Of a DNA stretch of 64,000 nt, positions 2,272 to 62,353 are shown one piece after another. Origin of the DNA: Sacculina carcini (taxonomy: Eukaryota; Arthropoda; Thecostraca; Sacculinidae); contig OU696580.1 in the NCBI GenBank assembly GCA_916048095.2, forward strand, positions 9,150,243-9,214,242, in the 5' to 3' direction. The translations under genes were made by a program, and so were the position numbers. The first letter of the stretch is position 1. Each line of letters starts with the position of its first letter. Under the pieces are notes generated by a model. That model saw nothing but the letters and a program-made list of their open reading frames with translations, made no database searches and was not told the origin of the DNA.

Positions 2272-2654
2272 GGACGAGGCGAGGATAGTGATTATTGAGC
2301 AGCCTGCTTCTCGTTCCCTGAGGTTTCGTTACGAGTGTGAGGGCAGGTCGGCGGGCAGTTTGCAAGGCGTCAGCTCCACACCTGATAATAAAACTCAGCC
2401 GAGTATTGAGGTGCGGGGGTACCGCGGCCCTGCAGTCGTCGTTGTCTCGTGTGTCACCAAGCAGGCGCCGTTCAGACCGCACCCTCACAATCTGGTCGGC
2501 AAGGAGGGCTGCAAGAAGGGCGTGTGTACTCTGCCCATCGACCCCAGTACCATGTCACTGTCATTCTCCAACCTGGGCATCCAGTGTGTCAAGAAGCGAG
2601 ACATCGACGAGTCGCTCAAAATCCGCGAGAACATTCGAGTCGATCCTTTTCATA
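2272..2654 (+). CDS. dl: Rel gene, RHD exon 1 (DNA-binding part)
   Basis: The acceptor is one of the AGs at 2267-2271 after the TG tract. The reading frame then gives VIIEQPASRSLRFRYECEGR and continues to VDPFH. The donor is A|GTCAGT with exon end at 2654 (phase 1), supported because joining to 3909 gives a Dorsal-like VDPFHTGFEH. The next 1.1 kb is a tandem array built on this same donor. Confidence 0.9.
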
Positions 2655-5600
2655 GTCAGTTCGCCTGTTTGTTAAATACATAATTATTTTCATAGTCAGT
2701 TCACCTGTTTGTTAAATACATAATTATTTTCATAGTCAGTTCACCTGTTTGTTAAATACATAATTATTTTCAGAGTCATTTCACCTGTTTGTTAAATACA
2801 TAATTATTTTCATAGTCAGTTCACCTGTTTGTTAAATACATAATTATTTTCATAGTCAGTTCACCTGTTTGTTAAATACATAATTATTTTCATAGTCATT
2901 TCACCTGTTTGTTAAATACATAATTATTTTCATAGTCAGTTCACCTGTTTGTTAAATACATAATTATTTTCATAGTCAGTTCACCTGTTTGTTAAATACA
3001 TAATTATTATCATAGTCAGTTCACCTGTTTGTTAAATACATAATTATTTTCATAGTCATTTCACCTGTTTGTTAAATACATAATTATTTTCATAGTCAGT
3101 TCACCTTTTTGTTAAATTCATGATTATTTTCATAGTCAGTTCACCTGTTTGTTAAATACATAATTATTTTCATAGTCAGTTCACCTGTTTGTTAAATTCA
3201 TGATTATTTTCATAGTCATTTCACCTGTTTGTTAAATACATAATTATTTTCATAGTCAGTTCACCTGTTTGTTAAATACATAATTATTTTCATAGTCAGT
3301 TCACCTGTTTGTTAAATACATAATTATTTTCATAGTCAGTTCACCTGTTTGTTAAATACATAATTATTTTCATAGTCAGTTCACTTGTTTGTTAAATACA
3401 TAATTATTTTCATAGTCAGTTCACCTGTTTGTTAAATACATAATTATTTTCATAGTCAGTTCGCCTGTTTGTTAAATACATAATTATTTTCAGAGTCATT
3501 TCACCTGTTTGTTAAATACATAATTATTTTCAGAGTTATTTCACCTGTTTGTTAAATACATAATTATTTTCAGAGTTATTTCACCTGTTTGTTAAATACA
3601 TAATTATTTTCATAGTCAGTTCACCTGTTTGTTAAATACATAATTATTTTCAGAGTTATCTCGCCTGTTTGTTAAATACATAATTATTTTCATAGTCAGT
3701 TCACCTGTTTGTTAAATACATAATTATTTTCAGAGTTATTTCACCTGTTTGTTAAGTGCAGGTTTTATTCTTGAAAACGGACAGTTTGTTAACAGTATGT
3801 GATCGTGCATGTTAGTTGAGTATTAGTTGAGAACACAATACTCCACATCTAATGGTTTTATTGCTACTAAACGTTCGTGTTTGTGTTTATGTTTGTGTGT
3901 TGTTTCAGCCGGTTTTGAGCATGCTCGCAAACATTCTGTGATCGACTTGAACGTTGTGCGTCTGTGTTTCCAAGTGTTTATTGAGGGCAGTGAGCCTGGT
4001 CGCTTTGTGGTTCCACTACAACCTGTCGTGTCGGATATGATCTATGATAAGAGTGAGTTGTCTTTGCTGCCCTACTGGCTAATACTAGCTGACACCAAAC
4101 ATTTCACCACTGCCGGGTCCAGGGGGGTGAAGTGCCACCTAAATGTTTCCATCAACTCCTCATAACCTCCTCCTCATCAAGAGGTTCACTAAAAGAGATC
4201 AAGAAACATATATGTCTGTAGAATTAGTAGATATAAGCATTATCGCAAAGACGTTGCATAATGATGCATGTACATGAATGATCGCGCCCAAAACTCCTCC
4301 CCAAAATTGATTCAGTCCGTCCCGAAATTGCACTTTGGATCGGCCGCTGTATCTCACACTTGCTCTGTCTGATAATTATCGCAAACTGTACCGAACTGTA
4401 CCAATATTGCCGTCTGTCTGATAATAATCGCAAACTGTACCAATATGTACCAATATGTACCAATATTGCCGTCTGTTCTGTTTGTGTCGTCGTTATTGTG
4501 CTGTTTATCAATTGATGGTAGATTTATCTCCGGTGACTTTGTTGATTACAAAATGATACTGTTGTTGTGACGTAATTACGATGTGATGATGTGATGTTGC
4601 AGAATCTCTCAATGATTTGGTCATCTACAAATTGTCCGAGTATTGTGCACCAGTATCAGGGGGCAAGGAAATTATTCTGCTGTGTGACAAAGTGTCGAGA
4701 GGTGAGTTGTTCATTTGTTACCCATATTATCAGAATTATCAGGTTATAGGTCAGTATTATCAGGTAACAGGTCAGTATTATCAGGTGACAGGTCAGTATT
4801 ATCAGGTGACAGGTCAGTATTATCAGGTGACAGGTCAGTATTATCAGGTAACAGGTCAGTATTATCAGGTAACAGGTCAGTATTATCAGGTGACAGGTCA
4901 GTATTATCAGGTGACAGGTCAGTATTATCAGGTGACAGGTCAGTATTATCAGGTGACATGTCAGTATTATCAGGTGACAGGTCAGTATTATCAGGTGACA
5001 GGTCAGTATTATCAGGTGACATGTCAGTATTATCAGGTGACAGGTCAGTATTATCAGGTGACAGGTCAGTATTATCAGGTGACAGGTCAGTATTATCAGG
5101 TGACAGGTCAGTATTATCAGGTGACAGGTCAGTATTATCAGGTGACAGGTCAGTATTATCAGGTAACAGGTCAGTATTATCAGGTGACAGGTCAGTATTA
5201 TCAGGTGACAGGTCAGTATTATCAGGTGACAGGTCAGTATTATCAGGTGACAGGTCAGTATTATCAGGTGACAGGTCAGTATTATCAGGTGACATGTCAG
5301 TATTATCAGGTGACAGGTCAGTATTATCAGGTGACAGGTCAGTATTATCAGGTGACAGGTCAGTATTATCAGGTGACATGTCAGTATTATCAGGTGACAG
5401 GTCAGTATTATCAGGTGACAGGTCAGTATTATCAGGTGACAGGTCAGTATTATCAGGTGACAGGTCAGTAATATCAGGTGACAGGTCAGTATTATCAGGT
5501 GACAGGTCAGTATTATCAGGTAACAGGTCAGTATTATCAGGTAACAGGTCAGTATTATCAGGTAACAGGTCAGTAATATCAGGTAACAGGTCAGTATTAT

Positions 5601-10200: not shown

Positions 10201-12328
10201 CTGTTGTACCCTCACACTGTTGTACCCTCACACTGTTGTACCCTCACACTGTTGTACCCTCACACTGTTGTACCCTCACACTGTTGTACCCTCACACTGT
10301 TGTACCCTCACACTGTTGTACCCTCACACTGTTGTACCCTCACACTGTAGTATCCTCACACTGTTGTACCCTCACACTGTTGTACCCTTTCAAGATATTT
10401 CCAACTCTGGTTAACTTGTGTGTGTGTGTATGTGTGTGTGTGTGACTGTACCTGGTGACTAATTGTTCTTCAATACGAATTAGCATTTCTACCTGCTGTT
10501 GTTGTTTGGTGTGGCTTGTCTCGTATTGTCCTAGCCGGCTCATATCCTGCACCTAATTGTATCTAATTGTACACACTGATTGTATCAGTGATTTGGTCTC
10601 ACTGCACTCGATCTCGTCATTGAGTCACTGAAAGTATGGTTTTGTGAGTAGCTCGTGTCTGCACCGTGTGTGTGTGTGTGTGGTAATGTTACCATGTAGA
10701 TGATGTACTGTGTGTGTCTTGTGACCTGCATGTGCATCTATCATGTGCATGTATGAAAACATTGCATCACAACTAATATTTCCCACCATTCTCTGTGTTG
10801 ATAATTTTCTAGCAGTGTGCATATTTTCCAATTACTTGTTTAATGTTTTTGATAATTATTTCTGTTAATTTTGAGTTTGATTTGCCTGTAATATCCAGCA
10901 GTTTAGTACAACATGTATTGTGTGTGTGTGTGTGTCAGGTATGAGTGAAGGTGTGAGTGTGATTGTGCCATTACTGGGGAAACGCAGTCGCACCAACACA
11001 ATGTGTTCTTCACACAGTTCATGTAGTACTGTTCTGCCGGCTCAGGCGGTCTCTCTCAACCCTGCCCCTCTGTCCGTCAATGTTAAACTTGAACAAGGCT
11101 AGTCTCCCACCACTCACTCACTCACACACTGTGTATATATGTGAACCGGTGTCATTAATCTGCATCATTATTTCTGGTACAGCACTTCCACTATGTCCAT
11201 CAACATTGTGTCCACTGTTTGTGCATTAACTTAATATTTTCACCTGAACTATACTTTCCTGATATGATATATTAGCGTGTGTCTGTGTTCATCATACGTA
11301 ATGATTTATTAGCATGTAATGTACTAGCTCATAATTAATATGGCACTGGTACATGTACTGATACGGCATATATTCCTCGCTTATTGTTGTATTACTAGTG
11401 TATATGCGTGTGTTTGTCTCTAGTTTCATCAGTCTATTTTTTCCACTGAATTATTGTGTGTCAAAGCTGTCATAGCATGTGTAAACATTAACATCAATGT
11501 ATTTCTCTTTTTGTCCTCTAGTCGCGTCGTGTTCTTGTTGTGCTTTATTTCCCAAATAGTTCACCAAATTGATCGCTGTTAGGAGAGCTGACATGTTGTT
11601 GTAAATTATGCGTTTTTACTGACAAATACTCCACCAGAATTCAGTAAACAAGCACCAGAATGATTGTAGATATATTGTAAATGAGTTTCAGTATATGCTA
11701 GTGAGATGATAACTTGTTCTATGTCAACATGTATTGATATCAAGCGTGTCATCCAAGCCCGCCGTCCAATGAGGACACTCAGTGTGTGACACATCACTTA
11801 TGTGATCACACTTGGCTGAGGTGACGTGCAGGTGTTGTGTGGCGGTTGCCAGATGCTGACTCGACAAGGTTGGCAGACCTGGAACCAAGCAGACTGTCGC
11901 CACATTGTCGCTCCGTGTGTTCGGAACATGGTGGTGTCAGTGATGACGATGCTGTCAGTGGCAAATCACCACCGGTCGCTTCTCCGTCTCTTCTGGCCAC
12001 GCTAGCTAATAACACAAGCAACTCGCCACACAAGCCCAGTGCCAATATCGAGCTGGACTTGAGTCGTCTCAACTCGGACGACTTGAAAATGCTCAGCTTC
12101 CCGTCCATGTCCGACATCAACCTGCAAGCCATCGACAGTCAACTGTCACTGAATTTGTCACAAAACCTCAGTTTTGCCGAGGCTGTCGGCGACTCGCGCA
12201 ATGCTCGCGATAACAACGTGTCCGAGCTGTGTGCAGATTCTCAAATGCACAGTGCTGGATTGTCGAGTGTTCAGTGTGCCGTGTCTTCTGGCCAATCCAC
12301 ACTCAACCAACTCAGTCGACCCGTCTGA
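2272..12328 (+). CDS. dl: Rel/NF-kB transcription factor, Dorsal/c-Rel type (multi-exon, N-terminus outside or unplaced)
   Basis: Coding exons 2272-2654, 3909-4052, 4603-4701, 6499-6632 and 7444-7540 join in consistent phase and encode a full Rel homology domain. It opens with the DNA-recognition loop RFRYECEGRSAGS, passes the conserved NLGIQCVKK and DLNVVRLCFQVF blocks, and continues into the dimerisation (IPT) domain with GGKEIILLCDKVSR and VWEAKGRFSAADIHKQVAI. The segment VDPF-T-GFEH resembles Drosophila Dorsal. After the RHD, 7540 can be followed by direct read-through to 8007, by an exon at 10939, or by an exon at 11832-12328 rich in acidic and leucine residues, which looks like a transactivation tail. 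No ankyrin repeats are seen, so this is a class II Rel protein that would act in the nucleus and be held by an IkB/Cactus partner. The start codon must lie in an upstream exon, because the RHD starts at the first visible exon. Confidence 0.93.
2647..3757 (+). repeat. 40-bp minisatellite, about 27 copies, each unit containing the exon-1 donor
   Basis: The period is 40 bp with very low divergence. The array begins inside the exon: the last eight exon bases TTTTCATA and the donor GTCAGT are part of the unit, followed by a fixed 26-base intronic portion. Variants are CATAGTCATT, CAGAGTCATT and CAGAGTTATT. It ends near 3757, about 150 bp before exon 2. Reading through from the exon meets TAA within the first unit, so use of downstream copies as donors would truncate the protein. 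Confidence 0.97.
3909..4052 (+). CDS. dl: Rel gene, RHD exon 2
   Basis: The acceptor TTTCAG ends at 3908 and the donor GTGAGT starts at 4053. The exon is phase 1 at both ends. It encodes GFEHARKHSVIDLNVVRLCF and the linker to the dimerisation domain (VVSDMIYDK). Confidence 0.92.
4108..4349 (-). mobile_element. MITE-like element in Rel intron 2
   Basis: The ends read CACTGCCGGGTCC at the left and, reverse-complemented, CAGCGGCCGATCC at the right. The interior (ATTATCGCAAAGACGTTGCA and neighbours) matches in inverted orientation the interior of the element at 16084-16313. No convincing target duplication was found. It is a short non-coding DNA-transposon relic. Confidence 0.65.
4603..4701 (+). 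CDS. dl: Rel gene, RHD exon 3 (dimerisation domain)
   Basis: The acceptor TTGCAG ends at 4602 and the donor GTGAGT is at 4702. Phase 1 in and out. It encodes SLNDLVIYKLSEYCAP and GGKEIILLCDKVSR, the first strands of the IPT dimerisation domain. Confidence 0.92.
4735..6392 (+). repeat. 21-bp minisatellite, about 79 copies, Rel intron 3
   Basis: The unit is CAGGTGACAGGTCAGTATTA plus T, with GTAACAG and CATGTCAG variants and a higher-order unit containing ATGAGGTCAGG at 5950-6180. Because 21 is a multiple of 3 it stays open in several frames (apparent QYYQVTG repeats), which is not evidence of coding. It starts about 35 bp after the exon 3 donor, and each unit contains two CAG|GT donor-like words (GTGACA or GTAACA, and GTCAGT). 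Confidence 0.97.
6460..6496. repeat. (TG)n tract before Rel exon 4
   Basis: An interrupted GTGTGT tract runs up to the CAG acceptor at 6496-6498. Confidence 0.9.
6499..6632 (+). CDS. dl: Rel gene, RHD exon 4
   Basis: The acceptor GTGCAG ends at 6498 and the donor is AAG|GTGCAT at 6633. It encodes DIEVHFVEKLDE, VVWEAKGRFSAADIHKQVAI and SLRTPAY, closely matching the c-Rel/Dorsal IPT domain. Confidence 0.93.
7188..7243. repeat. (CA)n microsatellite in Rel intron 4
   Basis: Simple CA repeat followed by a short TATATA run. Confidence 0.95.
7444..7540 (+). CDS. dl: Rel gene, RHD exon 5 (end of IPT domain)
   Basis: The acceptor GGCAG ends at 7443. It encodes VDKSVCVNVHLYRPSDQQYS and EPRQFLL, the last strands of the RHD. 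The usual PKA-type RRPS site reads YRPS. A donor GTAGGC follows at 7541 (phase 1), but the frame also runs on uninterrupted to 8007. Confidence 0.9.
7541..8007 (+). CDS. dl: Rel gene, alternative read-through C-terminus (retained intron/terminal exon)
   Basis: Without splicing at 7541 the RHD frame stays open for 155 further codons. It contains a basic cluster TRRNKSLSRRL that could serve as the nuclear localisation signal, then a Ser/Asp-rich patch SSDSDTDDSDDE. The stop codon is at 8005-8007. The low-complexity acidic composition fits a short transactivation tail. It may be an alternative isoform or simply intron. Confidence 0.5.
8418..8704 (+). mobile_element. hAT-type MITE with exact 8-bp target duplication
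   Basis: The element starts CAGTGGTTCCCAACC and ends GGTTGTGAACCTCTG, giving imperfect terminal inverted repeats typical of hAT elements. It is flanked by identical CTCTAGTG at 8410-8417 and 8705-8712. It is 287 bp and non-coding. Confidence 0.88.
8908..10388 (+). repeat. 16-bp minisatellite, about 92 copies, Rel intron
   Basis: The unit is TTGTACCCTCACACTG with point variants (TTGTACCATC, CTGTAGTACC, CACATTG). It is strand-asymmetric, C- and T-rich on the sense strand. The open frames across it are a repeat artefact. Confidence 0.97.
10939..11102 (+). CDS. dl: Rel gene, optional exon with basic motif
   Basis: An acceptor after a TG tract (GTGTCAG, ending 10938) opens a phase-1 exon compatible with the 7540 donor. 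It reads MSEGVSVIVPLLGKRSRTNT and continues to a TAG at 11100. GKRSR could be an NLS close to the RHD. A GC donor (CAAG|GCTAGT at 11099/11100) would keep phase with 11832; otherwise this is an alternative terminal exon. Confidence 0.55.
11832..12328 (+). CDS. dl: Rel gene, terminal exon with acidic/leucine-rich tail
   Basis: The acceptor GTGCAG ends at 11831. The phase-1 start fits both the 7540 donor and the possible 11099 donor. It encodes about 165 residues with a Ser/Pro-rich start and the hydrophobic-acidic stretch ELDLSRLNSDDLKMLSFPSM, which resembles a transactivation segment. The stop codon is at 12326-12328. Confidence 0.75.
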
Positions 12329-13888
12329 CTGTCTTCTCACAACATGTTGTATTATACGCGCTACTTGTCCTTCTTTCTGGCTGTCGCTTGTTTCTTGTTG
12401 GTGGTGTAGCAGTTGTGTGGTGGATCATTCCTCCACGGTGTAGCAGCTGTGTGGTGGACCATTCCTCCACGGTGTAGCAGCTGTGTGGTGGACTATTCCT
12501 CCACGGTGTAGCAGCTGTGAGGTGGATCATTCCTCCACGGTGTAGCAGCTGTGTTTTTTCTGTGCAATCACCATTTTGCCATTCACATCTGTTTCGTCTT
12601 TTGTGTGCTCGGCTTTTTGCCATAATACCGGCACGTGGGCTATTTTATTTCGTGTTTTCATGCTGCCAAATTCTACCATATTATAATAATGCACTGAATT
12701 TTTATTGTTACATTCATAATTGACGTACATTTCAGAGTTTATATTCGCAAGAATATTTTTCATCCGATGTTTTTATCATGATGCCATTTTTAGATGTCAT
12801 ATTTTGAATGGTTGTATATAATTAATTATTATTATACGTATGAAATGCCGACATTGTATGAATATTTGGCATGATATTGTGAAATAACGTTCTCTTGTGC
12901 ATACTTGCTTTTTGTGAAGTATGTTGAGTACGTGTGAATCTGTAATTGGCGGTAGTTACCAGGTGAGGAGGCTATATGGAATCACGTGGTCACAGGCATC
13001 GCATTGAAATGTCCGTGTGTTTTTGGTCAAATGCAGAATCCACCATCCCCAGTAATAATGCATCATTCCTGAAGTGCCGTTGCTCTGTGATACCATACCA
13101 CTTGGATCACTATTTTCGTGTGTTCTCCATGATGCGAGATGAGGCTATGTTTCACGTTTTATTTGACACTGGCAATAATGAGCATGTTACCCGACATTCA
13201 GCTTACTGCTGCCAACTGTTCCACCGGGTTCTCATCACTTATTAATAGGCTGTCAAGACCTCGGTGCAATATCGCTTCACCTTTTAATTAAGAATCGATT
13301 GACTTCATGAGACTGTTGTTTGTGCATTCATATGACTGTGTGAGCGTTTTCCCTCACCACAACTCCGAATCTCTCATTATTATGTTTTGCCTTCGGATGG
13401 GTTGTTTTCCCACGCGTGTCAGGTGTTCTAGGCATGGTGGCGCATGTTGTCTGTCTGTCTGTCTGTCAGGCTCGTGTCCTTGAAGTATTTGCTTGTGTTG
13501 TGCTCCATGCGAGGCGGGCAATCGCGTAGTCCTCCATTAATTCACAATTCTCCATTATTTGCTCGCAGCACTTTGGGCTGTTCGACAAGGTCGGCCGAAT
13601 ATATGAATTCACTTGCCTTCAACCTGTCTGTCTTATGGTAATTTTGAGCTATACTGGACACCAGTGATTTCACACATCCTGGCTGCTTTTTTACCGGCTC
13701 ATCTCTCGAGCGAAACAGTCAAACAGACGCAGTCACATCCGTTGACATGTCACGTGATTTTCCATCCACGTGCGCATCTAATAACTGCGATCTGTTCGAC
13801 TGGCTGGCGTGTGCTCATCATCTCTTATCATTATTTGTCAAGTACTGCTTCATTGTTCTGTTTAGTGTACGAATGAATTCATAATAAA
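12329..13888 (+). other. probable 3' UTR of the Rel gene, with poly(A) signal
   Basis: No credible coding exon is seen here. An AATAAA at 13883-13888 is the first well-placed poly(A) signal after the stop codon. The length of about 1.5 kb is inferred, not shown. Confidence 0.45.
12403..12552 (+). repeat. 35-bp tandem repeat, about 4 copies, in the Rel 3' UTR
   Basis: Unit GGTGTAGCAGCTGTGTGGTG plus ATCATTCCTCCAC, repeated with single-base changes. Confidence 0.92.
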
Positions 13889-20933: not shown

Positions 20934-21407
20934 AATGACATATGCCGTAACTGTACAGCGGTCAGTAGTGTGACCTGTGACATTGAGTCCGGGTTTCATC
21001 ACGACGCTTGACCAACATGTCAATGCTTGCATATGTGCACACCCTTTGATTGCTTGTACTCTCCCACTGCATAATTTCAGTTTTCAGTTCCCAGTTGATT
21101 GTTTGTGATATCAAATCTCACGTCCAAAACAAAGCTTTTTCTCCAGGGTTCAGTGAAAACCAGGCTCTTCCAAAGTACACCTATGAATACAACTTGAAAG
21201 TAGCTTGTTAAGCATTCATTTATCGTGTAGTGTAAATTAGCGACTGTCTGATCTAATTTGAGTGAATTTGTATCTTTCTATTACTCAATTTCTGTTTTTA
21301 TGACCAAAACAAGCAAGATATATTGATAATAAAAATTTCCCCTGGTCCGGAACGTCGTTAATCTTGGTTATGATGATACATGTTGTTTTATATGCTATTA
21401 AATAGCA

Positions 21408-23729
21408 ATGCTTCCTAATTTATATATTGTGTTCTTTGGAATGATTGTCGGAGACATACCGTTTTTTCAGGTATGTTGCATTTTGATGATAGTGGTCAGT
21501 GTTCAGTACACAAGATGCGCACCGCAAACCACTTACAATTACCCTGTTCCTGATATCGAGTTCAACTATTTGCCTCCCATTGGAGGAGCGAGCAACAACG
21601 AAGGAACTGGCAGTCTGAATATTCTGCCCCAGTTGCCAGCCTTAGCGCCTCGTCCGTCGGGCTCAAGACGAAATAGACCTGTGACCGACAGGGGCGAAAA
21701 TGTCATTTTCACAGTAGAAGACATTACATCGTCACCTAAACCACGCCAACCTGTTTCACTAACGCCGAAGACAACGCCCAGTCGAGCTAGTACTGGAAGA
21801 ATAAACCAATACTCAACATCAGCAGTAACAAACACGGTCAAGTCAACTGTTCCTAGAAGACCTCCTGTGACAACTAAACCGTCATCTTCAACTACACGCA
21901 GACGACGACCATCTGGAAGCACGAAAAATCCCCCAAACAGCACAACGAGAAGACGCCCTTCTACCACGCGTATCCCTACATCAAGCAATAGACGACGAAG
22001 ACCATTAGTAACGAACAAGCCATTTTCGACCACTCCGCGTTCAACAACAAACGCCGGCTTGACAAATTCAAAACAGCCAACAAAAGTGAATACGCGTGTT
22101 TCTCAGCGACGACGACCAACAATCTCTTCCACTTTACAACTGCCCACTGGTTCCATTTCTAGACAACCAGTAACTCAACCGAGACCAGTTCAGTCCACAA
22201 GAACTACTCGCCCTATCTCAAGAAATCGCAGACCAACAACCAGTGGAGCAGTTTCGACTTCGGAAAATCGTTCACAATCTACTACACAAGGATCAATAAA
22301 TACTCCCATCAGTTATCAATACTTACCGCCTTCCATTGGCCCACCGTCTTCTGGAAGTCGCCGAAAGCCGATTCGTGCACAAACGACTGAAACACCTGAA
22401 ATAACAACGTACCGTCCTCCTCGAACACGGCGGCCCGCCGTCACTACAAGAAGACCAATAGTTTCCACGGAAAGAACCGCTGTCACCACTAGGAGGCCCA
22501 GTACTTTCACAAGAAAACCAGACTCAAGCAAAATCAGACCAATCTTCACTACCAGAAAGCCCTTGGTAACCACACAAAGACCAGTTAAAACAACAAGAAG
22601 ACCAATCATCACAACTAGGAGACCAATCTTCACTACAAGAAGACCAATCATCACAACTAGGAGACCAGCTGTTACTACAAGAAGACCAATCATCACAACT
22701 AGGAGACCAATCTTCACAACAAGAAGACCAATCATCACAACTAGGAGACCAGCTGTTACTACAGGAAGACCAATCATCACAACTAGGAGACCAGCTGTTA
22801 CTACAAGAAGACCAATCATCACAACTAGGAGACCAGCTGTTACTACAAGAAGACCAATCATCACAACTAGGAGACCAATCTTCACAACAAGAAGACCAAT
22901 CATCACAACTAGGAGACCAATCTTCACTACCAGGAAGCCCATCGTAACAACAAAAAGACCAGTTAAAACAACCAGAAGACCAGTCATCACAACTAGGAGA
23001 CCAATCGTCACTACCAGAAGACCGGTTGTTACTACAAGAAGACCGGTTGTTACTACAAGAAGACCAGTCATCACAACTAGGAGACCAGCTGTTACTACAA
23101 GAAGGCCAGTCGTTACTACAAGAAAACCCGCCTTTCCTTCGAGAAAACCAATTTTTACAACAAAAAAACCCAGTGCTACTACGAGAAGACCATTCACTAC
23201 GAAGAAGCCTGTCTTTACAACAAGGAATCCCACCATCTCAACATCGAAGCCTGTGATCAACACCTCGGGGCGTCCTAACGTTTCTACACTCAACTCATCG
23301 TCATCTGGTTCGGCAGGGAATTCGCAAGTGAGTCAAAACTGCCTCTCAGTCTAATCAAAGGCTAATGAAACTAATTATAGACACATCATAAGATGACTGT
23401 TATGTTGTAATATTAAGTCGCTGATATTGATACATCAATCAAGCTCGTATTGTAGGCGCTCGTATTGTGGCTGCCGGTGCATGTGTACACTGTACTGTTT
23501 GAATGTTTTTGTCTGATAGATGATGATGCACATGTCGCGACCCTACGAGTTCGGCTACAACATCGACGACGAGAACACGGACAACACGTTCAGTCAGAAA
23601 GAGAGCAGCGACGGCATGGTGATCACAGGTGAGTATCGCTGGAAGATGCCCGACGGCAGGACACAGATAGTCACGTACCTCGCAGACTGGGCGGACGGCT
23701 ACTACCCCAGTATTCGATACGAACGCTAG
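21408..23729 (+). CDS. Secreted Thr/Pro/Arg-repeat cuticle protein with C-terminal chitin-binding (RR) domain
   Basis: Two exons join in phase 0. Exon 21408(or 21471)-23327 has donor GTGAGT at 23328; exon 23520-23729 follows TGATAG and ends in TAG. The N-terminus has a hydrophobic stretch (VCCILMIVVSV) that fits a signal peptide. The real start is either ATG 21408/21441 or an upstream exon spliced at TTTTTTCAG (ends 21470), a common place for the first intron in cuticle genes. Residues about 140-640 are low-complexity basic Thr/Pro sequence, with a heptad TTRRPxx repeated dozens of times from about 22430 to 23130. The last 69 residues contain YEFGYNIDDENTDNTFSQ and GEYRWKMPDGRTQIVTYLAD, the Rebers-Riddiford chitin_bind_4 signature. 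It is probably an extracellular matrix/cuticle structural protein. Confidence 0.85.
22565..23130 (+). repeat. 21-bp coding repeat (RPxxTTR heptads)
   Basis: Near-identical units such as AGACCAATCATCACAACTAG encode RPIITTR, RPAVTTR and RPIFTTR. Synonymous and non-synonymous variants are shuffled in blocks, as expected from unequal exchange. Confidence 0.9.
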
Positions 23730-50647: not shown

Positions 50648-50785
50648 TTGGGGTTATGTCGCAGTGTTGTTAATCGCCGTGTGTTTTCTCGCTCACTGAA
50701 CACCACGAAACTGTTCATCAATGGCCAGTTTGTGGAGAGTGACACGACAGAATGGATTGATCTTCACAATCCTGCTACTAATCAG
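50648..50785 (+). CDS. ALDH6A1: ALDH6A1 exon, presequence and N-terminal strands
   Basis: The acceptor TTTACAG follows a TG tract. It encodes [20 protein letters not shown] then PATNQ. The donor is CAG|GTGCTT, phase 0. Confidence 0.92.
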
Positions 50786-53700
50786 GTGCTTCCAGTGACT
50801 TTTCTGGCTTGCTCTGCTTGTCTGCTTGTTGTACTGATCTCAATGATCCGGTGCTGATTATTTTCACACAGGATGACAGCTAAGACGGCGGTGAAGATAT
50901 TATACGTATCACTTGTGTGTTCGCCTCGGTACTTCTCATGCAGCGTGTAGTTGAACTCAGAGCTGATCAGCGAGTAATTTTGGTCACTGAAATATTGCAT
51001 CGCCAGCAGAAGAAATGTTGCTGTTTTGCTAAAAGCTAGATATTTTTTTAACTAGTTTTCTCGCGGTCGTCTGAGATTCACGCCAGACGCGTACTTCCAG
51101 CAAATCATCACGCTCAATATACTAATATTATCGTAGCCGCCATTTCAATAAATGTGCAGTCTTGAGTGTACTGGCGTGTATGAGAACTATGCGTTATTAA
51201 GTGCTGTCTGTTTCTGTTCTCTGCTGAACGAGAGATTTTCTTGCATGTCGTTTTGGTTTTGCTATAACAACTTGCTTGACTGTATTTGATACCTGCCTGG
51301 TGATCACTGATTTCCTCAGTAATTGGTTTCTGCCGCGTCGAGAAACCAGCCGTTTTATCTGGTTCTGGCTGGTTTTGACATCTGTTGGTTATGCTTGTTT
51401 ATTATGCAGTGAGTGAAGCGAGGCTAGCAAGACCTGCTCTGTGTTCTGTGTCAGTAACAATGTATGGCTGCTCTGTGTTATGTGTCAGTAACAATGTGTC
51501 GCTGTGGTGTTTCTGTTTGTGTTCTGTGTCAGTAACAATGTGTGGCTGCTCTGTTCTCTGTGTCAGTAACAATGTGTGGCTGCGGTGTTTCTGATTGTGT
51601 CTCGTGTTATGACCAGGTTGTGACCAGGGTTCTTGTTGTTGTCTCGTGTTATGACCAGGTTGTGACCAGGGTTCTTGTTGTTGTCTCGTGTTATGACCAG
51701 GTTGTGACCAGGGTTCCTGTTGTTGTCTCGTGTTATGACCAGGTTGTGACCAGGGTTCCTGTTGTTGTCTCGTGTTATGACCAGGTTGTGACCAGGGTTC
51801 TTGTTGTTGTCTCGTGTTATGACCAGGTTGTGACCAGGGTTCCTGTTGTTGTCTCGTGTTATGACCAGGTTGTGACCAGGGTTCCTGTTGTTGTCTCGTG
51901 TTATGACCAGGTTGTGACCAGGGTTCCTGTTGTTGTCTCGTGTTATGACCAGGTTGTGACCAGGGTTCTTGTTGTTGTCTCATGTTATGACCAGGTTGTG
52001 ACCAGGGTTCCTGTTGTTGTCTCGTGTTATGACCAGGTTGTGACCAGTGTTCTTGTTGTTGTCTCGTGTTATGACCAGGTTGTGACCAGGGTTCCTGTTG
52101 TTGTCTCATGTTATGACCAGGTTGTGACCAGGGTTCCTGTTGTTGTCTCGTGTTATGACCAGGTTGTGACCAGGGTTCCTGTTGTTGTCTCGTGTTATGA
52201 CCAGGTTGTGACCAGGGTTCCTGTTGTTGTCTCGTGTTATGACCAGGTTGTGACCAGGGTTCCTGTTGTTGTCTCGTGTTATGACCAGGTTGTGACCAGG
52301 GTTCCTGTTGTTGTCTCGTGTTATGACCAGGTTGTGACCAGGGTTCCTGTTGTTGTCTCGTGTTATGACCAGGTTGTGACCAGTGTTCTTGTTGTTGTCT
52401 CGTGTTATGACCAGGTTGTGACCAGTGTTCTTGTTGTTGTCTCGTGTTATGACCAGGTTGTGACCAGGGTTCCTGTTGTTGTCTCGTGTTATGACCAGGT
52501 TGTGACCAGTGTTCTTGTTGTTGTCTCGTGTTATGACCAGGTTGTGACCAGGGTTCCTGTTGTTGTCTCATGTTATGACCAGGTTGTGACCAGGGTTCCT
52601 GTTGTTGTCTCGTGTTATGACCAGGTTGTGACCAGGGTTCCTGTTGTTGTCTCGTGTTATGACCAGGTTGTGACCAGGGTTCCTGTTGTTGTCTCGTGTT
52701 ATGACCAGGTTGTGACCAGGGTTCCTGTTGTTGTCTCATGTTATGACCACGTTGTGACCAGGGTTCCTGTTGTTGTCTCGTGTTATGACCAGGTTGTGAC
52801 CAGGGTTCCTGTTGTTGTCTCGTGTTATGACCAGGTTGTGACCAGGGTTCTTGTTGTTGTCTCGTGTTATGACCAGGTTGTGACCAGTGTTCTTGTTGTT
52901 GTCTCGTGTTATGACCAGGTTGTGACCAGGGTTCTTGTTGTTGTCTCATGTTATGACCAGGTTGTGACCAGGGTTCCTGTTGTTGTCTCGTGTTATGACC
53001 AGGTTGTGACCAGGGTTCCTGTTGTTGTCTCGTGTTATGACCAGGTTGTGACCAGGGTTCTTGTTGTTGTCTCGTGTTATGACCAGGTTGTGACCAGGGT
53101 TCTTGTTGTTGTCTCGTGTTATGACCAGGTTGTGACCAGGGTTCTTGTTGTTGTCTCGTGTTATGACCAGGTTGTGACCAGGGTTCCTGTTGTTGTCTCG
53201 TGTTATGACCAGGTTGTGACCAGGGTTCTTGTTGTTGTCTCGTGTTATGACGAGGTTGTGACCAGGGTTCCTGTTGTTGTCTCATGTTATGACCAGGTTG
53301 TGACCAGGGTTCTTGTTGTTGTCTCATGTTATGACCAGGTTGTGACCAGGGTTCCTGTTGTTGTCTCGTGTTATGACCAGGTTGTGACCAGGGTTCCTGT
53401 TGTTGTCTCGTGTTATGACCAGGTTGTGACCAGGGTTCCTGTTGTTGTCTCGTGTTATGACCAGGTTGTGACCAGGGTTCCTGTTGTTGTCTCGTGTTAT
53501 GACCAGGTTGTGACCAGGGTTCCTGTTGTTGTCTCGTGTTATGACCAGGTTGTGACCAGTGTTCTTGTTGTTGTCTCGTGTTATGACCAGGTTGTGACCA
53601 GTGTTCTTGTTGTTGTCTCGTGTTATGACCAGGTTGTGACCAGGGTTCCTGTTGTTGTCTCATGTTATGACCAGGTTGTGACCAGGGTTCCTGTTGTTGT

Positions 53701-56700
53701 CTCGTGTTATGACCAGGTTGTGACCAGGGTTCTTGTTGTTGTCTCATGTTATGACCAGGTTGTGACCAGGGTTCCTGTTGTTGTCTCGTGTTATGACCAG
53801 GTTGTGACCAGGGTTCCTGTTGTTGTCTCATGTTATGACCAGGTTGTGACCAGGGTTCTTGTTGTTGTCTCGTGTTATGACCAGGTTGTGACCAGGGTTC
53901 TTGTTGTTGTCTCGTGTTATGACCAGGTTGTGACCAGGGTTCTTGTTGTTGTCTCATGTTATGACCAGGTTGTGACCAGGGTTCCTGTTGTTGTCTCGTG
54001 TTATGACCAGGTTGTGACCAGTGTTCTTGTTGTTGTCTCATGTTATGACCAGGTTGTGACCAGGGTTCTTGTTGTTGTCTCGTGTTATGACCAGGTTGTG
54101 ACCAGTGTTCTTGTTGTTGTCTCGTGTTATGACCAGGTTGTGACCAGGGTTCTTGTTGTTGTCTCATGTTATGACCAGGTTGTGACCAGGGTTCCTGTTG
54201 TTGTCTCGTGTTATGACCAGGTTGTGACCAGGGTTCCTGTTGTTGTCTCATGTTATGACCACGTTGTGACCAGGGTTCCTGTTGTTGTCTCGTGTTATGA
54301 CCAGGTTGTGACCAGGGTTCCTGTTGTTGTCTCGTGTTATGACCAGGTTGTGACCAGGGTTCTTGTTGTTGTCTCGTGTTATGACCAGGTTGTGACCAGT
54401 GTTCTTGTTGTTGTCTCGTGTTATGACCAGGTTGTGACCAGGGTTCTTGTTGTTGTCTCATGTTATGACCAGGTTGTGACCAGGGTTCCTGTTGTTGTCT
54501 CGTGTTATGACCAGGTTGTGACCAGTGTTCTTGTTGTTGTCTCATGTTATGACCAGGTTGTGACCAGGGTTCTTGTTGTTGTCTCGTGTTATGACCAGGT
54601 TGTGACCAGGGTTCCTGTTGTTGTCTCGTGTTATGACCAGGTTGTGACCAGGGTTCCTGTTGTTGTCTCATGTTATGACTAGGTTGTGACCAGGGTTCCT
54701 GTTGTTGTCTCATGTTATGACCAGGTTGTGACCAGTGTTCTTGTTGTTGTCTCGTGTTATGACCAGGTTGTGACCAGTGTTCTTGTTGTTGTCTCGTGTT
54801 ATGACCAGGTTGTGACCAGGGTTCCTGTTGTTGTCTCGTGTTATGACCAGGTTGTGACCAGGGTTCTTGTTGTTGTCTCGTGTTATGACCAGGTTGTGAC
54901 CAGGGTTCTTGTTGTTGTCTCGTGTTATGACCAGGTTGTGACCAGGGTTCTTGTTGTTGTCTCGTGTTATGACCAGGTTGTGACCAGGGTTCTTGTTGTT
55001 GTCTCGTGTTATGACCAGGTTGTGACCAGGGTTCCTGTTGTTGTCTCGTGTTATGACCAGGTTGTGACCAGGGTTTCTGTTATTGTCTCGTGTTATGACC
55101 AGGTTGTGACCAGTGTTCCGCGCAGCACAACAGCAGAAATGGAATCGGCCGTGCAGGCCGCTCGTGACGCCTTTGCCTCGTGGTCTTCTTGTTCCGTGCT
55201 GACTCGCCAGCAAATCATGTTCAATTATCAGAGCTTAATACGTCGCAACATCAAGGAACTGGCCAGAAACATCACACGCGAACAGGGCAAAACTCTGAGT
55301 GACGCCGAGGGAGATGTTCTTCGAGGATTACGTACGTACATTCAGGAACGTAGGTTTGTGTCGAGGCTCGGGGGGATGACAGTCATCATCTATTAGTGTT
55401 CAAAGTTGACTCAGTTGGCCAATTGCATGATATCACACACACCTCAATGATAAATATATTGCATATACTTGCATACACACATTTGTCGTGTATTGTTACC
55501 CTTTTTATATGCAGATTTTGATCTGAATATAGTCAATGAACTTGTTTCAGTAGAATTATCGGGGGGTATGATTACATATTGTCGGGGGTGTATATACCCC
55601 CATACCCCCAGGATGTACGGTCATGGGTACAACGTTTTATTTCACTGTTATTTTCAGACTGACATTTGTCATGTTTTTGTGCGACTTTCAAGTGGTGTTC
55701 TTGTTGAATATTGACACGACAGCTGGCTCGTTTGTTATTTGTTTTACTGACGCTTGTTTTTGTCTGTTCAGAGTTGATCGATCAGAACCGATATACACTC
55801 GGATCAATTGCTGATTTCAGAGGTTGTTGAGCATTGTTGCAGCGTGACGTCACTGCAATTGGGCGAGACATTGAGCAATGTGGCCAAGGATATGGACACT
55901 GTGTCGTACCGGGTGCCTCTGGGTGTGTGTGCCGGAATTGCGCCGTTCAACTTTCCCGCCATGATTCCGTTATGGGTGAGAGGCAGTGTGACAGTTTCAA
56001 GCACGTGCTTGCTTGTGGTAAATAGTAACTGAATTTTAGGCGCCAGACAATGGTGTTTGTGTGTTCAGATGTTCCCCACGGCGCTGGTGTGTGGCAACAC
56101 GTACGTAATGAAGCCCAGTGAACGGGACCCTGGAGCCTGCATGATGCTGGTTCAGTTGTTACAGGTGCGTTCTCACTAACGCATTCCTCGTGCAATATGC
56201 CCAGTATAATTATCATAAATATTATTCTAGCATGACATCGATGATATCGCTAGCTCGTGTTTATCTGGATTTATTGAAACATTTTGGTTCAATTTGCATT
56301 GCGTTCATGAATATGTACAGTTATTTTGGGATTGTTTAATAATTTCAATAATCCGTTATTTTGGAGAAAACCCTGAAAATTTGTGTATTTCTTTATCATA
56401 ATCTGCGAACAGATTGACATATCTTGATTAATTGTGCAACTAAGAGTTGAGTTATTATTTGAGTTGAGTCATGGAGATTGTGTTAGCACAATGGACCGAC
56501 ATTACCAGCTTGAATCAATCTGGTGTTGTATTGTTCGTGTGACCGTGACTCAAACTCATCCACAAGTGATGTTCTGCTGAATCAGTGAGTATTGGTGCTG
56601 TTCATGCAGGATGCAGGCTGTCCTGATGGAGTTGTCAATGTGATTCACGGCCAACATGAAGCGGTCGACTTTATTTGCGATCATCCACACATCAAAGCCA

Positions 56701-59700
56701 TCTCTTTTGTCGGGTCAGATCAGGCGGTCAGTTTTACATTCAGCTTTATCATTCATTCTCTTGCCATTTAGCTTTATCATTCATTCTCTTGCCATTCAGC
56801 TTTATCATTCATTATCTTGCCATTCAGCTTTATCATTCATTCTCTTGCCATTCAGCTTTATCATTCATTCTCTTGCCATTTAGCTTTATCATTCATTCTC
56901 TTGCCATTTAGCTTTATCATTCATTCTCTTGCCATTCAGCTTTATCATTCATTATCTTGCCATTCAGCTTTATCATTCATTCTCTTGCCATTCAGCTTTA
57001 TCATTCATTATCTTGCCATTCAGCTTTATCATTCATTATCTTGCCATTTAGCTTTATCATTCATTATCTTGCCATTCAGCTTTATCATTCATTATCTTGC
57101 CATTCAGCTTTATCATTCATTATCTTGCCATTCAGCTTTATCATTCATTATCTTGCCATTTAGCTTTATCATTCATTATCTTGCCATTTAGCTTTATCAT
57201 TCATTATCTTGCCATTTAGCTTTATCATTCATTATCTTGCCATTCAGCTTTATCATTCATTCTCTTGCCATTTAGCTTTATCATTCATTATCTTGCCATT
57301 GAGCTTTATCATTCATTATCTTGCCATTCAGCTTTATCATTCATTCTCTTGCCATTTAGCTTTATCATTCATTATCTTGCCATTGAGCTCTATCATTCAT
57401 TATCTTGCCATTTAGCTTTATCATTCATTATCTTGCCATTTAGCTTTATCATTCATTCTCTTGCCATTTAGCTTTATCATTCATTATCTTGCCATTTAGC
57501 TTTATCATTCATTATCTTGCCATTTAGCTTTATCATTCATTATCTTGCCATTCAGCTTTATCATTCATTATCTTGCCATTTAGCTTTATCATTCATTATC
57601 TTGCCATTCAGCTTTATCATTCATTATCTTGCCATTCAGCTTTATCATTCATTATCTTGCCATTTAGCTTTATCATTCATTCTCTTGCCATTCAGCTTTA
57701 TCATTCATTATCTTGCCGTATTGATAAAACATTGTTTTGTCAGTGTTTTTATTTCCAGTCAAGGCAAATGGTAATATTTTGAGTGTGTTGATTGAATGGC
57801 ACAATGCTATTTTGCACAATAATTGATTGCAGTTGCGTGTATCCGCTGTTACTGGCTTGTGTTTCAGGGACGACATATTTACTGACTTAACATTACTGGC
57901 TTGTGTTTCAGGGACGACATATTTACTGACTTAACATTACTGGCTTGTGTTTCAGGGACGACATATTTACTGACTTAACATTACTGGCTTGTGTTTCAGG
58001 GACGACATATTTACTGACTTAACATTACTGGCTTGTGTTTCAGGACGACATATTTACTGACTTAACATTACTGGTTTGTGTTTCAGGACGACATATTTAC
58101 TAGCTTAACATTACTGACTTGTGTTTCAGGGACGACATATTTACGAGCGGGGAAGTCGTAATGGCAAGCGCGTGCAGGCCAACCTTGGTGCCAGAAACCA
58201 CGGCGTTGTTATGCCCGATGCTCAGCGAGACCACACCATCGACCAGCTGGTGGGAGCTGGGTTCGGTGCGGCCGGACAACGCTGTATGGCTCTCAGTTGT
58301 GTTGTGTTGGTTGGCGAGGCTCGTCAATGGCTGCCTCAACTCGTAAAACGAGCCTCCAAACTCAGAGTCAACGCCGGTACTTCTACACTGTCATTTCACG
58401 TTGAACTTGAGTCCACGCCATTCACGAACTTGCGTATCTCTCTCTCTCTCTCTCTCTCTCTTTATATACGCAAATCACATGCAAACACACACACACACAG
58501 ACATACAAGTTGTTCGCATGAAATAGTTTGAAAACGTGGGCAATATCTGAGGAGAGAGTGATAAATGGTTGAAATTGATGCAATGATTATTGACAAGTAG
58601 CTAATGAGAACCTGTGTTCGTTGACAAACATCGGCTTGGCTGGTTGAAGGTGCAATAATACCAGACACTTTCCTGGCTTCCATCATGTTATGCATCTACA
58701 TCAATTATATAGCCAGATCATCGAGGACTTGTTCATTGGTCTACTTGTTGGCTGACCATTTAAAAGTGAGAACAATTAATAAAGAAAATGCCGAGAAATG
58801 CAAGTATCAATACATCGGAACAAATGGCATATTAAGAAGTTTTGCAGGCCGGGAGAACAACGCATTGTAGCTAAACATCTGGCAAACATTTCTGAGTCGA
58901 AACTTTTTGTGCAATTCATTCTCGAAAGTTTGTGAAACCAGCAGAATTATTGGCGTTGTTTGTTTTTATGGAAACATTAATGTGTATGTACACTGGTGCA
59001 TGCATATATGCGGGTATGCGTGTGTGTGTGTGTGTTGGGTAGGGGATAGTGATAATGTGGATGTTGGACCTGTTATATCGCCTGAGGCCAAGGCTCGTAT
59101 TTGTGAGCTGATACAGTGCGGTATAGATGAGGGAGCCAGGTGTGTTTTGGACGGTCGGAACGTTCAAGTGGCAGGCTATGAGAATGGTAATTTTATCGGA
59201 CCCACCATTCTAACCGACGTTCAGGTGGGACTTCACGTCTACACATCCATTACATCAGTCTCTCGTCAATCTCTTGATTTATCTCAAATATTTATCTCAA
59301 AGAGAAAAGTGTTTGGTTAAGTGACAACAGCCAAGACCAGAAGTCGTATTTTTCTGATTTTTTCCAATATTTACTTTCTCTAAATGTATGAGCCTCTTGT
59401 TCCATGAGCTAGCATAATTTCTGCATTGTTGGGTTAGTGAACTGAACATACCAAATGTTATATCAATCCTGTTTGCCTGCTATGTAGTGAATTATTATTC
59501 AGTGTTTGTGCTTGACTACTGATATTATTTTCATTTGTTCTTTTTCAACACTGATGCGCTGATTCATGTGCTCGATGCTGAAATTACAACCACACTTACT
59601 GAATCATATTCAACCTATGCTTAAATTATGCTGGTACTTATTTGAAGCGGCACGACATTGTTTTTCAGTAGGCCGCAATCAGCATTGTTGTATTAATTGA

Positions 59701-62044
59701 TATTGCTAGAACAAGGCGGTGTAGTTGGTTTGTGAGAGAGACTGGGGCAATGACAAGCAGAAATGAGATCACCATAGCTTCACTATCACGACACCGCCTG
59801 TGTTGCAATCATAAGCTCGAGGTCATTAACGATTGACGGCTTTGTTGGGGCGGCTTTTTCTGTGCCACACATTACATTGTCACAACGTATTTACTGCTCT
59901 GCGCTGCTACCAACGTCGTTTTCGCCATGAGCCGGGGACATATTTGATCGTGTCATTGAATCTGAGTAGTGAACGTTGAACTGAATTGAGGAGGCGAGAA
60001 GACCTGAGAGGGAAAACGAAGAGCAAGAGTTCGTATAATCAGCATAGTTTTGTGTAAGCAGCACACACAGGATTGATGATAGTTTTGAGACATGAGCTGT
60101 GTTGAAAATCAAGATGAAAATATGTTTTGACGTCATCGATGTATGGTAGATTATGATGGAACATCCAACACGAATGGTACACTGAGAAGCTGTGTTAACG
60201 GTCATGTTTCATGGGATATATCTGCGATGGATTAGATTTCAGCTAATACAATGGTATATGCGGTGGGTGATATGCACTGTGGACAAGTGTATTTTGAACA
60301 AATGTATGAGTGAACTGTTCTTGTTGAATGATATACTCATGATTTACGGGCGAGTTGCAATTATTAGTTGGTAGTTGTGTGTAAATACAGGGCTACTAGC
60401 ATGAGATAGGATGCACTTTTGTCATTGTTATGCATGCTACTTGTGCTCTTTCAGTATTAATGTCGGTGAGTTTTAATTTTAATCAGCGTTCACTGAGAGA
60501 GAGGTATATTTATTGGCAATATTATGCTGGTTTTGCGGTGTTGTCGAATGTTAGTACTTTTATATGGGCTCATTTTCTATGTGATTCACACCTTATTGTG
60601 GACTTGGACAAATGACTGATGTTTCAGTATTTAGTACATCTTCAATGCCCATACGGTGTGGTGCGTATTCAAGTTCTTGTAATAATTGAGATGAGTCTCA
60701 TATAAGTCAGCAAGTAATATCATCCAGGAGTTGCATGTGTTGTAGTTATACATTGATGATGATATAGGGCCATTTCATGCCAGCTACTTTGCTATTGTGA
60801 TTGTTGTTATCTGGCGTGATATTTGGGCAGACCAATATGCGCTGTTATCAAGAAGAGATATTCGGTCCGGTTCTTTGTGTTTTAACGACGGACACGCTCG
60901 ATGAAGCTATCCAGTTAATCAACAGAAATCGCTATGGCAACGGCACGGCCATTTTCACAAGCAGTGGGGCCAACGCGCGACACTTTTCTCACAACGTCGA
61001 TGTTGGACAAGTGAGCACATTATCTCGAAACTCACGCTAACACAACAGACAACGTTTGTATTGTGAGGGTTTTAAGGCAGGATGTCTGACGGTCTGTGCG
61101 TGCTGTTTGTTGAGCAACAGTCGATTGTAATTGATGATTCTTTTTCAGAGCTGAATAGAATGGCTGTTCTGCCATATTGTACATGTTCTTATCTAGTTTT
61201 TCCTCTCTGTTATATCTGGATTTTCATCTCAAAGATTGAAACATCTGTAACGAGATCAATTAAACTTTTATCACAAGCTGCACATATACAAAACAGTAGA
61301 ACTTTTCCATACAAAACATTACAAACACACCACATGTGCGCACAACTAAATGGCCTATCTAAACAGCGATATCACACACTGAAGACAACACAACTTATGT
61401 GACCATGCATTTATTGTTTTTATCTGATCATATGTTATTTTTCATGTAGAATAATTTGTTATTCAAGCAAGGTCTGAGCTATATTGATCGAAAACTGCCA
61501 ATAATCACTATGCTGAATTAATTATCCGTGTGAGACGGTATGATCAGTGATGCGTTGTGTCAGTCGGGGTCGTGAGAGGTTTTGTTCTGGCAATATTTCA
61601 CGAGCGACATGGCCTCATCCACTGATGTGTTCTAATGCGTCAATATGTAAAATATGTAATTGTCAATATGTAATTGTCTACGCTAAATTGGCCACACATG
61701 CTGACTCATTGTCAACATTATATCTTATAGCTGGTGAGAATATTGTATGTGTGGTATTTGTTTAATTTATTTGTATAAGTGAGGCTGAATGTTCCACTCT
61801 TATATACAAGCTCAACAGGTTTCATCTTGATGGTGCTTGTGAACGTGTGAATACAACCGTACTAAATCTATCACATGAGTTCATGTTCAGTAATTGGGTG
61901 ATTGTTTTCAGAATGACAATAGACATTTGGTGTTTTGTTGATAAGGTTGGCATCAATGTACCGATTCCTGTTCCACTACCAATGTTTTCTTTCACTGGCT
62001 CGCGTGGCTCTTTTCTCGGAGATACGAATTTCTACGGCAAAGCG
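50648..62044 (+). CDS. ALDH6A1: Methylmalonate-semialdehyde dehydrogenase (acylating), mitochondrial; last exon beyond window
   Basis: Nine exons join in perfect phase: 50648-50785, 55103-55331, 55821-55975, 56069-56164, 56610-56726, 58130-58376, 59043-59224, 60831-61010 and 61946-62044. The enzyme converts malonate and methylmalonate semialdehydes to acetyl- and propionyl-CoA in valine and thymine catabolism, using NAD+ and CoA. The first visible exon has an Arg/Ser-rich mitochondrial presequence ([20 protein letters not shown]). [10 protein letters not shown] and FVGSD mark the NAD-binding region, and [10 protein letters not shown] holds the catalytic Cys. EEIFGPVL and [18 protein letters not shown] are also typical of the family. 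The initiator Met exon upstream and the final exon (expected FYTQ-K-TxxxxWK) were not found. Two introns contain giant arrays made from their own acceptors. Confidence 0.96.
50786..51597. other. first part of a 4.3-kb ALDH6A1 intron
   Basis: Contains short AACAATGTGTGGCTG/TGTGTCAGTAACAATG repeats at 51450-51580, just before the 42-bp array. No exon supported. Confidence 0.5.
51598..55114 (+). repeat. 42-bp minisatellite, about 83 copies, each carrying the acceptor of the next exon
   Basis: Every unit contains TGTTATGACCAG|GTTGTGACCAG, identical to the true splice acceptor and the first exon bases at 55103. Since 42 is a multiple of 3 both strands stay open: the plus frame ([14 protein letters not shown]) is the same frame as the exon, and the minus frame gives [14 protein letters not shown]. 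One unit has TAG at 54680. The 1,000-residue open frames are repeat artefacts. Confidence 0.98.
55103..55331 (+). CDS. ALDH6A1: ALDH6A1 exon 3 (of those seen, second)
   Basis: Acceptor GACCAG ending at 55102 gives [22 protein letters not shown], with no gap relative to the family. The nearer AG at 55113 would be out of phase. It ends TTAC|GTACGT in phase 1. Confidence 0.9.
55821..55975 (+). CDS. ALDH6A1: ALDH6A1 exon, NAD-binding region
   Basis: Acceptor GATTTCAG, donor TGG|GTGAGA. It encodes [19 protein letters not shown] and [20 protein letters not shown]. Confidence 0.96.
56069..56164 (+). CDS. ALDH6A1: ALDH6A1 exon
   Basis: Acceptor GTTCAG, donor [29 protein letters not shown] then [12 protein letters not shown]. 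Confidence 0.96.
56610..56726 (+). CDS. ALDH6A1: ALDH6A1 exon
   Basis: Acceptor CATGCAG, donor [29 protein letters not shown] then [20 protein letters not shown] 28-bp array begins within about 15 bp of the donor. Confidence 0.96.
56735..57716 (+). repeat. 28-bp minisatellite, about 35 copies
   Basis: The unit is CAGCTTTATCATTCATTATC plus TTGCCATT. Main variants are CATTCTC/CATTATC and CATTTAG/CATTCAG. It starts directly after the exon donor at 56727 without including exon bases. Confidence 0.97.
57849..58129 (+). repeat. 44-bp tandem repeat, 6 copies, each carrying the next exon's acceptor and first 15 bases
   Basis: Units read TTGTGTTTCAG|GGACGACATATTTAC (one G lost in the last two), then TGACTTAACATTACTGG. 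The true acceptor at 58129 is followed by the same 15 exon bases and then GAGCGGGG. A decoy acceptor would read GRHIY and then TGA or TAG. Confidence 0.96.
58130..58376 (+). CDS. ALDH6A1: ALDH6A1 exon with catalytic cysteine
   Basis: [31 protein letters not shown] and [12 protein letters not shown] (catalytic Cys). Donor GCCG|GTACTT, phase 1. A CT microsatellite follows at 58438-58461. Confidence 0.97.
59043..59224 (+). CDS. ALDH6A1: ALDH6A1 exon
   Basis: The acceptor GGGTAG follows a TG tract. [20 protein letters not shown], then [16 protein letters not shown]. Donor GTGGGA, phase 0. Confidence 0.95.
59225..60830. other. ALDH6A1 intron without further features
   Basis: Ordinary AT-rich intron; short open stretches on both strands look random. 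Confidence 0.55.
60831..61010 (+). CDS. ALDH6A1: ALDH6A1 exon
   Basis: Acceptor [27 protein letters not shown] and [15 protein letters not shown], ending NVDVGQ at CAA|GTGAGC. Confidence 0.96.
61946..62044 (+). CDS. ALDH6A1: ALDH6A1 exon, penultimate
   Basis: Acceptor [26 protein letters not shown] then [12 protein letters not shown]. The donor GTTGGT is weak but phase 0 is as expected; the C-terminal exon lies beyond the window or was not recognised. Confidence 0.93.
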
Positions 62045-62353
62045 GTTGGTTTCACATTGTTTCTGCAGCCATTTTCCGCTTGTTATAGAACAATTAGTGC
62101 AATGTTTATGTTTATCTGGTTATATTAGGTATAATTTACTGATTATCGTTGTTCAAAAACATCACGGATATATTGAGAATGGCGCCTACATATATTTGTT
62201 ATCACAACAGTCTTTCGTGCCGTAATAATAATGTCCTATGGAAGAAGAAATTCAATATTGTAGATCAATGTTGTCATGAGTAATATATCAGTATTTTAGC
62301 AGCCAAGTCATTCTATATTGAGCTGGAGTTTATATTGAATTTGTCCGACCTGA

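Follow-up and report, generated by a model that had tools for sequence, protein, structure and literature searches.

How does a pre-mRNA find its exon when the acceptor that opens this exon is repeated some 84 times along the preceding intron? The question is raised by ALDH6A1 of Sacculina carcini, which lies in a 64,000-nucleotide stretch of contig OU696580.1 (assembly GCA_916048095.2, positions 9,150,243 to 9,214,242; hereafter the window, whose forward-strand positions are used below, with a slash marking splice junctions). The exon that ends in LHNPATNQ (50648..50785, + strand, donor CAG/GTGCTT) is followed by an intron of 4317 bp (50786..55102, +), which consists chiefly of a 42-bp tandem array, and then by an exon that begins with VVTSVPRST (55103..55331, +; 229 nt), the first 17 bp of which are the final partial unit of the array. 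Tandem repeats that straddle exon-intron boundaries received the name "mirages" in amphioxus Adh3 and were later described in the amphioxus globin genes BflGb6 and BflGb9 (PMC3087553; here and below, statements on papers cited by PMC number refer to excerpts of them). We conclude, with a probability of roughly 80%, that the array is a mirage-type minisatellite and that exon definition most likely directs splicing of the pre-mRNA to 55103.

An ALDH6A1 acceptor in 84 copies

Tandem Repeats Finder (TRF) delimits the array at 51598..55119 (+; 83.9 copies, 97% matches, score 6519), so that it ends inside the ALDH6A1 exon. Each unit comprises the 25 final bp of the intron, including the AG, and the 17 initial bp of the exon. 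Stepping back from the exon start at 55103 by 42 bp at a time gives 84 junction positions, numbered from k=0 to k=83, and the acceptor AG is intact at 82 of them; the acceptor trinucleotide is CAC at k=20 and k=56, TAG at k=10 and GAG at k=44. A GT immediately follows the AG in 82 of the 84 units. The sequence-only reading had placed about 83 in-frame acceptor copies upstream of an ALDH6A1 exon, over 51598..55331; the number and the array start hold, but the array ends at 55119 and 55331 is the end of the exon. Exact copies of the junction 22-mer GTTATGACCAGGTTGTGACCAG number 80 in the 264-Mb genome, every one inside the array, and the same 22-mer reversed has 0 matches in the genome.

The identity of the gene and the position of the junction were established at the protein level. 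The exon at 55103-55331 encodes part of a methylmalonate-semialdehyde dehydrogenase (MMSDH; TIGR01722, 1.1e-23; PDB 8xxq, 1.8e-22), and nine ALDH6A1 exons from 50648 to 62045 form a single open frame of 481 residues, in a model that covers this interval, exons further out not having been sought, and in which the end of the last exon is approximate by one base. When the exons are joined at 55103, the product aligns to 8xxq without a gap across NPATNQ/VVTSVP (233 bits). Inclusion of one extra 42-bp unit, through the acceptor at k=1, opens a 14-residue gap and lowers the score to 216.4 bits. In the family alignment the two exons, once joined, follow each other directly, so that nothing calls for an exon between them, and the exon starts inside the unit; the earlier assignment of gene and junction stands, and the two ways in which it could have failed, an exon in between or an exon start elsewhere, were not found at the protein level.

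The array is also in frame with the gene, as had been proposed. An in-frame TAG at 54680-54682 (+ strand) doubles as the AG of acceptor k=10, and the frame is open from 54683 to 55396; the ten decoys from k=1 to k=10 therefore stay open, and acceptors further upstream run into the stop.

Variation among the units is slight. Only 7 of the 42 columns vary across 83 units, which indicates that the interior units are homogenised, and the exon-edge unit (k=0) has two private changes. The remaining rare variants (CAC twice, TAG and GAG) are confined to the acceptor trinucleotide. A run of 8 units, k=14-21, recurs in order at k=50-57; shuffled orders give a mean of 5.2 and a maximum of 9, so that this is weak evidence at best for a block duplication. 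Just 5' of the array lies a separate and more diverged 34-bp array (51434..51583, +; 4.1 copies, 76% matches), which includes no junction.

Junction arrays in the surrounding region

The sequence-only reading had treated the array as a single oddity, a view that did not survive. We examined the window together with 140 kb upstream (204,242 bases, 2,742 of them N) and retained minisatellites with a period of at least 15, at least 3 copies and a score of at least 120 that were not dinucleotide-like. At least 7 of the 35 span a splice junction: besides the 42-bp array, two more lie in the window and at least four outside it. ALDH6A1 itself has another acceptor array (44 bp x 6.8; 57849..58144, +; unit ..TTGTGTTTCAG/GGACGACATATTTAC..), after the exon that ends in FVGSDQA (56610..56726, +). 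Its 7 acceptors lie at 57868, 57912, 57956, 58000, 58044, 58087 and 58130, the last being the true one, and the exon that follows (58130..58376, +) gives a gapless protein match across the junction (203 bits). The other case in the window is a donor array of 40 bp x 27.7 (2647..3755, +) in a Rel/NF-kB gene, the unit of which consists of the last 8 exon bases and GTCAGT. It begins in a Rel-homology exon (2285..2654, +, start approximate) that ends in RVDPFH/T with donor CATA/GTCAGT; the true donor at 2655 is the first copy, and 27 more follow, GTCAGT being kept in 18 of the 27. The Rel junction aligns to Gambif1 with no gap at the junction and one gap elsewhere (266.5 bits).

Outside the window, a gene with exons matching Pfam Arf, which we take to be ARL2, has a 42-bp array with 6 acceptors, and a gene matching Pfam Cbl_N3 (1.2e-39), presumably CBL, has a 21-bp array with 6 acceptors. 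A modular gene with no Pfam match has a 20-bp x 147.8 donor array, with 137 matches of TTG/GT[CT]AGT including the true site, and a second donor array (64 bp x 5.2), in which 3 further matched copies read GTAATG or GTGATG rather than GTGAGT. In both ALDH6A1 arrays, Rel and CBL, the copy in agreement with the family is the exon-touching one, as judged by database alignment across the junction, and so it is in ARL2, as judged by reading of the translation only. All 5 ARL2 decoys run into a stop at residue 6, which indicates that the architecture can exist without open frames, and all 6 CBL acceptors are open into the shared exon. Two of the arrays have periods, 44 bp and 40 bp, that three does not divide, and the ARL2 decoys are closed, so that frame compatibility is not common to the class. 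By eye, three more arrays begin within 10 bp of a donor and exclude it: a 17-bp array in CBL, a 23-bp array in ARL2 and a 28-bp x 35 array in ALDH6A1 (56737..57717, +), which starts 10 bp into the intron that also holds the 44-bp array.

We also asked whether minisatellites prefer junctions. In ALDH6A1 and Rel, the genes recognised independently of their arrays, of the 6 intronic arrays tested, 3 span a junction where 0.52 would be expected (P 0.010 with a 5-bp overlap, 0.0047 with 8 bp); this test did not take in the array downstream of the Rel stop, nor a 16-bp Rel array (8906-10388) whose flanking exons are unsettled. The count of 7 in 35 is biased because the arrays themselves helped to draw attention to ARL2, CBL and the modular gene, and the exons beside the remaining arrays were assessed by eye only. 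Genome-wide, triplets of GGTAAGT gave 89 hits (13 places) and those of the reversed motif 100 hits (24 places, counted by hand from rows), which shows no preference against a single-copy baseline of 18:27 in a 304-kb sample. Triplets of TTTCAGG gave 154 hits against 6 reversed, with a single-copy baseline already at 42:14, and in these hits, not reduced to places, long arrays count many times. A preference of minisatellites for splice motifs is therefore not clearly seen in the motif counts, and the junction cases may need no more than random seeding where minisatellites abound.

The region is indeed rich in minisatellites, which cover 14.7% and 16.1% of C15:9.01-9.21 Mb (C15 being the contig that carries ALDH6A1) against 1.6% of C7:5.0-5.1 Mb, values obtained with a slightly different filter. 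It lies less than 0.6 Mb from the end of the contig, which is 9.568 Mb long, and the comparison sample, 100 kb in all, is interior to another contig. This sample held 5 arrays by the same filter as above, and no junction case stood out among them in a codon-score scan. The three window cases ranked high in such a scan, through which the 20-bp donor array was found; its remaining rows were taken as low-scoring or coding repeats. Across six arrays, splice-motif columns held 16 variant types in 34 columns and the others 29 in 175. Decay of decoys, or selection on them, was not supported by a shift test from which ambiguous and true-copy variants had been removed (14 against 10.2 expected, P 0.11).

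Choosing among near-identical acceptors

A matrix trained on 11 non-array acceptors (bases -20 to +3) scores the true ALDH6A1 acceptor at 4.49, which equals the decoy median, and 64 of the 83 decoys score equally high or higher. The training acceptors themselves score 8.4-24.7, values flattered by self-scoring, and the true site of the 44-bp array has the lowest score of the 7. Because most decoys score as high or higher, the sequence from -20 to +3 cannot pick the true acceptor. What distinguishes it is that only the last acceptor, or the first donor, of an array adjoins a normal exon, and exon definition is an established mechanism that could exploit this adjacency. We suggest that a tandem duplication of the 3' junction segment (25 bp of intron and 17 bp of exon) came first and that unequal exchange or slippage may have expanded this segment to about 84 near-identical units, of which the exon-edge unit would have stayed a working acceptor while the remaining units turned into intron. 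The donor and exonic sequence of the 229-nt exon would then pair with the nearest upstream acceptor, which would direct splicing to 55103, and decoy acceptors would be ignored or used at a low level, their products mostly ending at the TAG. The cell probably ignores the copies and splices only to the one beside the real exon.

Several points weigh against this conclusion. Exclusive use of 55103 is read from the sequence, and the matrix, built from 11 sites, spans -20 to +3 only, with two k=0-specific changes just upstream of that span. Because the 42-bp period is a multiple of three and k=1 to k=10 are open, leaky use of decoys would keep the frame. Furthermore, the first-made acceptor, if used, would be expected to yield a truncated product, which is possible for part of the transcripts.

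The strongest rival is an isoform ladder. If the last 11 acceptors were used appreciably, ALDH6A1 would be made in forms with n x 14 additional residues at the NPATNQ/VVTSVP turn, and transcripts spliced to earlier sites would undergo nonsense-mediated decay. The near-identical sites, the in-frame period and the open frame at 54683-55396 all permit such a ladder, and CBL, with its 21-bp steps, is a second open case in frame. The substitutions among the units point the other way. Across 83 units there are 8 substitution types, of which 6 replace an amino acid, 1 introduces a stop and 1 is silent; because 7 of the 8 are nonsynonymous or nonsense, albeit from few events, we see no sign of selection as protein, and the apparent lack of coding constraint leans against a translated array. 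The family alignment loses 16.6 bits when one unit is added, the ARL2 decoys are each closed by a stop, and reverse-transcription PCR suggested regular splicing of mirages in amphioxus (PMC3087553; PMC3902484). We therefore regard appreciable use of the ladder as unlikely. The same doubt attaches to a broader version, in which junctions here repeatedly become long minisatellites and leaky choice among identical acceptors yields protein-length ladders that vary between individuals along with the length of the array, in steps of 14 residues in ALDH6A1 and of 7 in CBL.

Less probable still is an assembly artefact, with a real copy number far smaller or an array that is misplaced. Near-identical arrays are easily misassembled in copy number, and a neighbouring stretch has a run of 2,500 N; on the other hand, unique sequence flanks the array on both sides, its variants are interspersed, and it is one among many independent arrays with different units. 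We consider it very improbable that the array is a real coding extension, encoding a 14-residue protein repeat. Its frames are long (1048 aa up to the TAG and 237 aa beyond it), but the minus strand is open even longer (1225 aa), which suggests that openness is a property of the unit and not of coding. Purifying selection on codons between units, which would mark a translated repeat, was not found among the few substitution events, an in-frame stop interrupts the array, and the family alignments shown contain no such repeat. Finally, recursive splicing, in which CAG/GTTGTG would serve as both acceptor and donor and the intron would be removed in 42-nt steps with no trace in the mRNA, fits the AG-GT succession in 82 of 84 units and is nonetheless scarcely credible, since no strong acceptor is fused to a strong donor (4.49 against 8.4-24.7), GTTGTG is unlike the 13 listed donors of both genes (position +3 is T in GTTGTG but in 0 of the 13, and +5, likewise T in GTTGTG, is G in 10 of the 13), and other junction arrays lack AG/GT (e.g., CAG/GGACG, CAG/AGGTT and TAG/TTACG).

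Neighbouring observations and comparison with known systems

Other repeats and frames were noted along the way. At 22593-23224 of the window, a 42/84-bp repeat lies in a TTRRP-rich frame of 650 aa (open reading frame 21402-23354) and is apparently coding, unlike the intronic arrays. A 34-bp x 4.5 array at 12403-12554 follows shortly after the stop (12328) of a late Rel-gene frame and is probably 3' untranslated region. On the minus strand, a 717-aa open frame (138-2291) adjoins the Rel gene and reads like what we presume to be a non-long-terminal-repeat reverse transcriptase. Outside the window, uninterrupted 550-aa MMSDH/ALDH-like frames at C7:939777-941132 and C7:968688-970043, 29 kb apart and with near-equal scores, are possibly intronless paralogues of the intron-rich ALDH6A1 on C15. 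A 25-bp x 6.1 array at C15:9084309-9084460 starts within an open frame and extends over its TAA, so that the end of a coding sequence, stop codon included, would seem to have been multiplied. Arrays that occur three times, at C3:6262084, 6289568 and 6317052 (~27.5-kb spacing) and at C8:7418372, 7424911 and 7431450 (~6.5-kb), suggest segmental triplications.

The value of the 42-bp array lies in its scale, in the recurrence of such arrays in one region and in the test bed that it offers for splice-site choice. Where 82 AG acceptors or 137 matched donors are lined up and only one of them touches an exon, the array is a natural experiment on the choice made by the spliceosome, as the local site sequence is near constant while the distance to the exon varies. 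Another minisatellite invites comparison: that of the interferon-induced gene 6-16 (IFI6/G1P3), the subject of Turri et al. 1995, reportedly has a splice site in each unit, and its 12-bp units are said to lie on the donor side and to be used as alternative donors, whereas the 42-bp ALDH6A1 array lies on the acceptor side. In human duplicated genes, minisatellites of ~30-bp units at exon-intron boundaries alter introns; these average ~4 repeats and some form novel introns (PMC2812944), whereas here a pre-existing conserved junction was multiplied. A C. elegans intronic minisatellite has been linked to alternative splicing without junction copies in the excerpt concerned (PMC4039745). In a narrow literature search we found no report of junction arrays this large, or of any beyond amphioxus and human.

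The closest likeness is to mirages, and the 42-bp array is a new and unusually long case of this described class. Mirages include acceptor-side and donor-side cases with AG or GT signals in many units, and they show haplotype differences and diverged edge units (PMC3087553); the same architecture is reported for amphioxus PGBD5, with troponin C cited (PMC3902484). As in mirages, the 42-bp unit combines bases from the intron and the exon side of a real junction, here fixed by ungapped protein alignment. Both boundary types also occur in this one genome (donor in Rel and the modular gene; acceptor in ALDH6A1, ARL2 and CBL), and homogenised interior units (7 of 42 columns variable) contrast with a diverged edge unit that has two changes of its own. 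Mirages have been proposed to seed new introns (PMC3087553), and the junction arrays described here bear on that proposal as well as on intron lengthening. The difference is one of size: in the excerpts, which state no number for Adh3, amphioxus mirages have 3 and 6 copies in BflGb6 and 2-7 and 3-6 in PGBD5, against ~84 and ~148 here.

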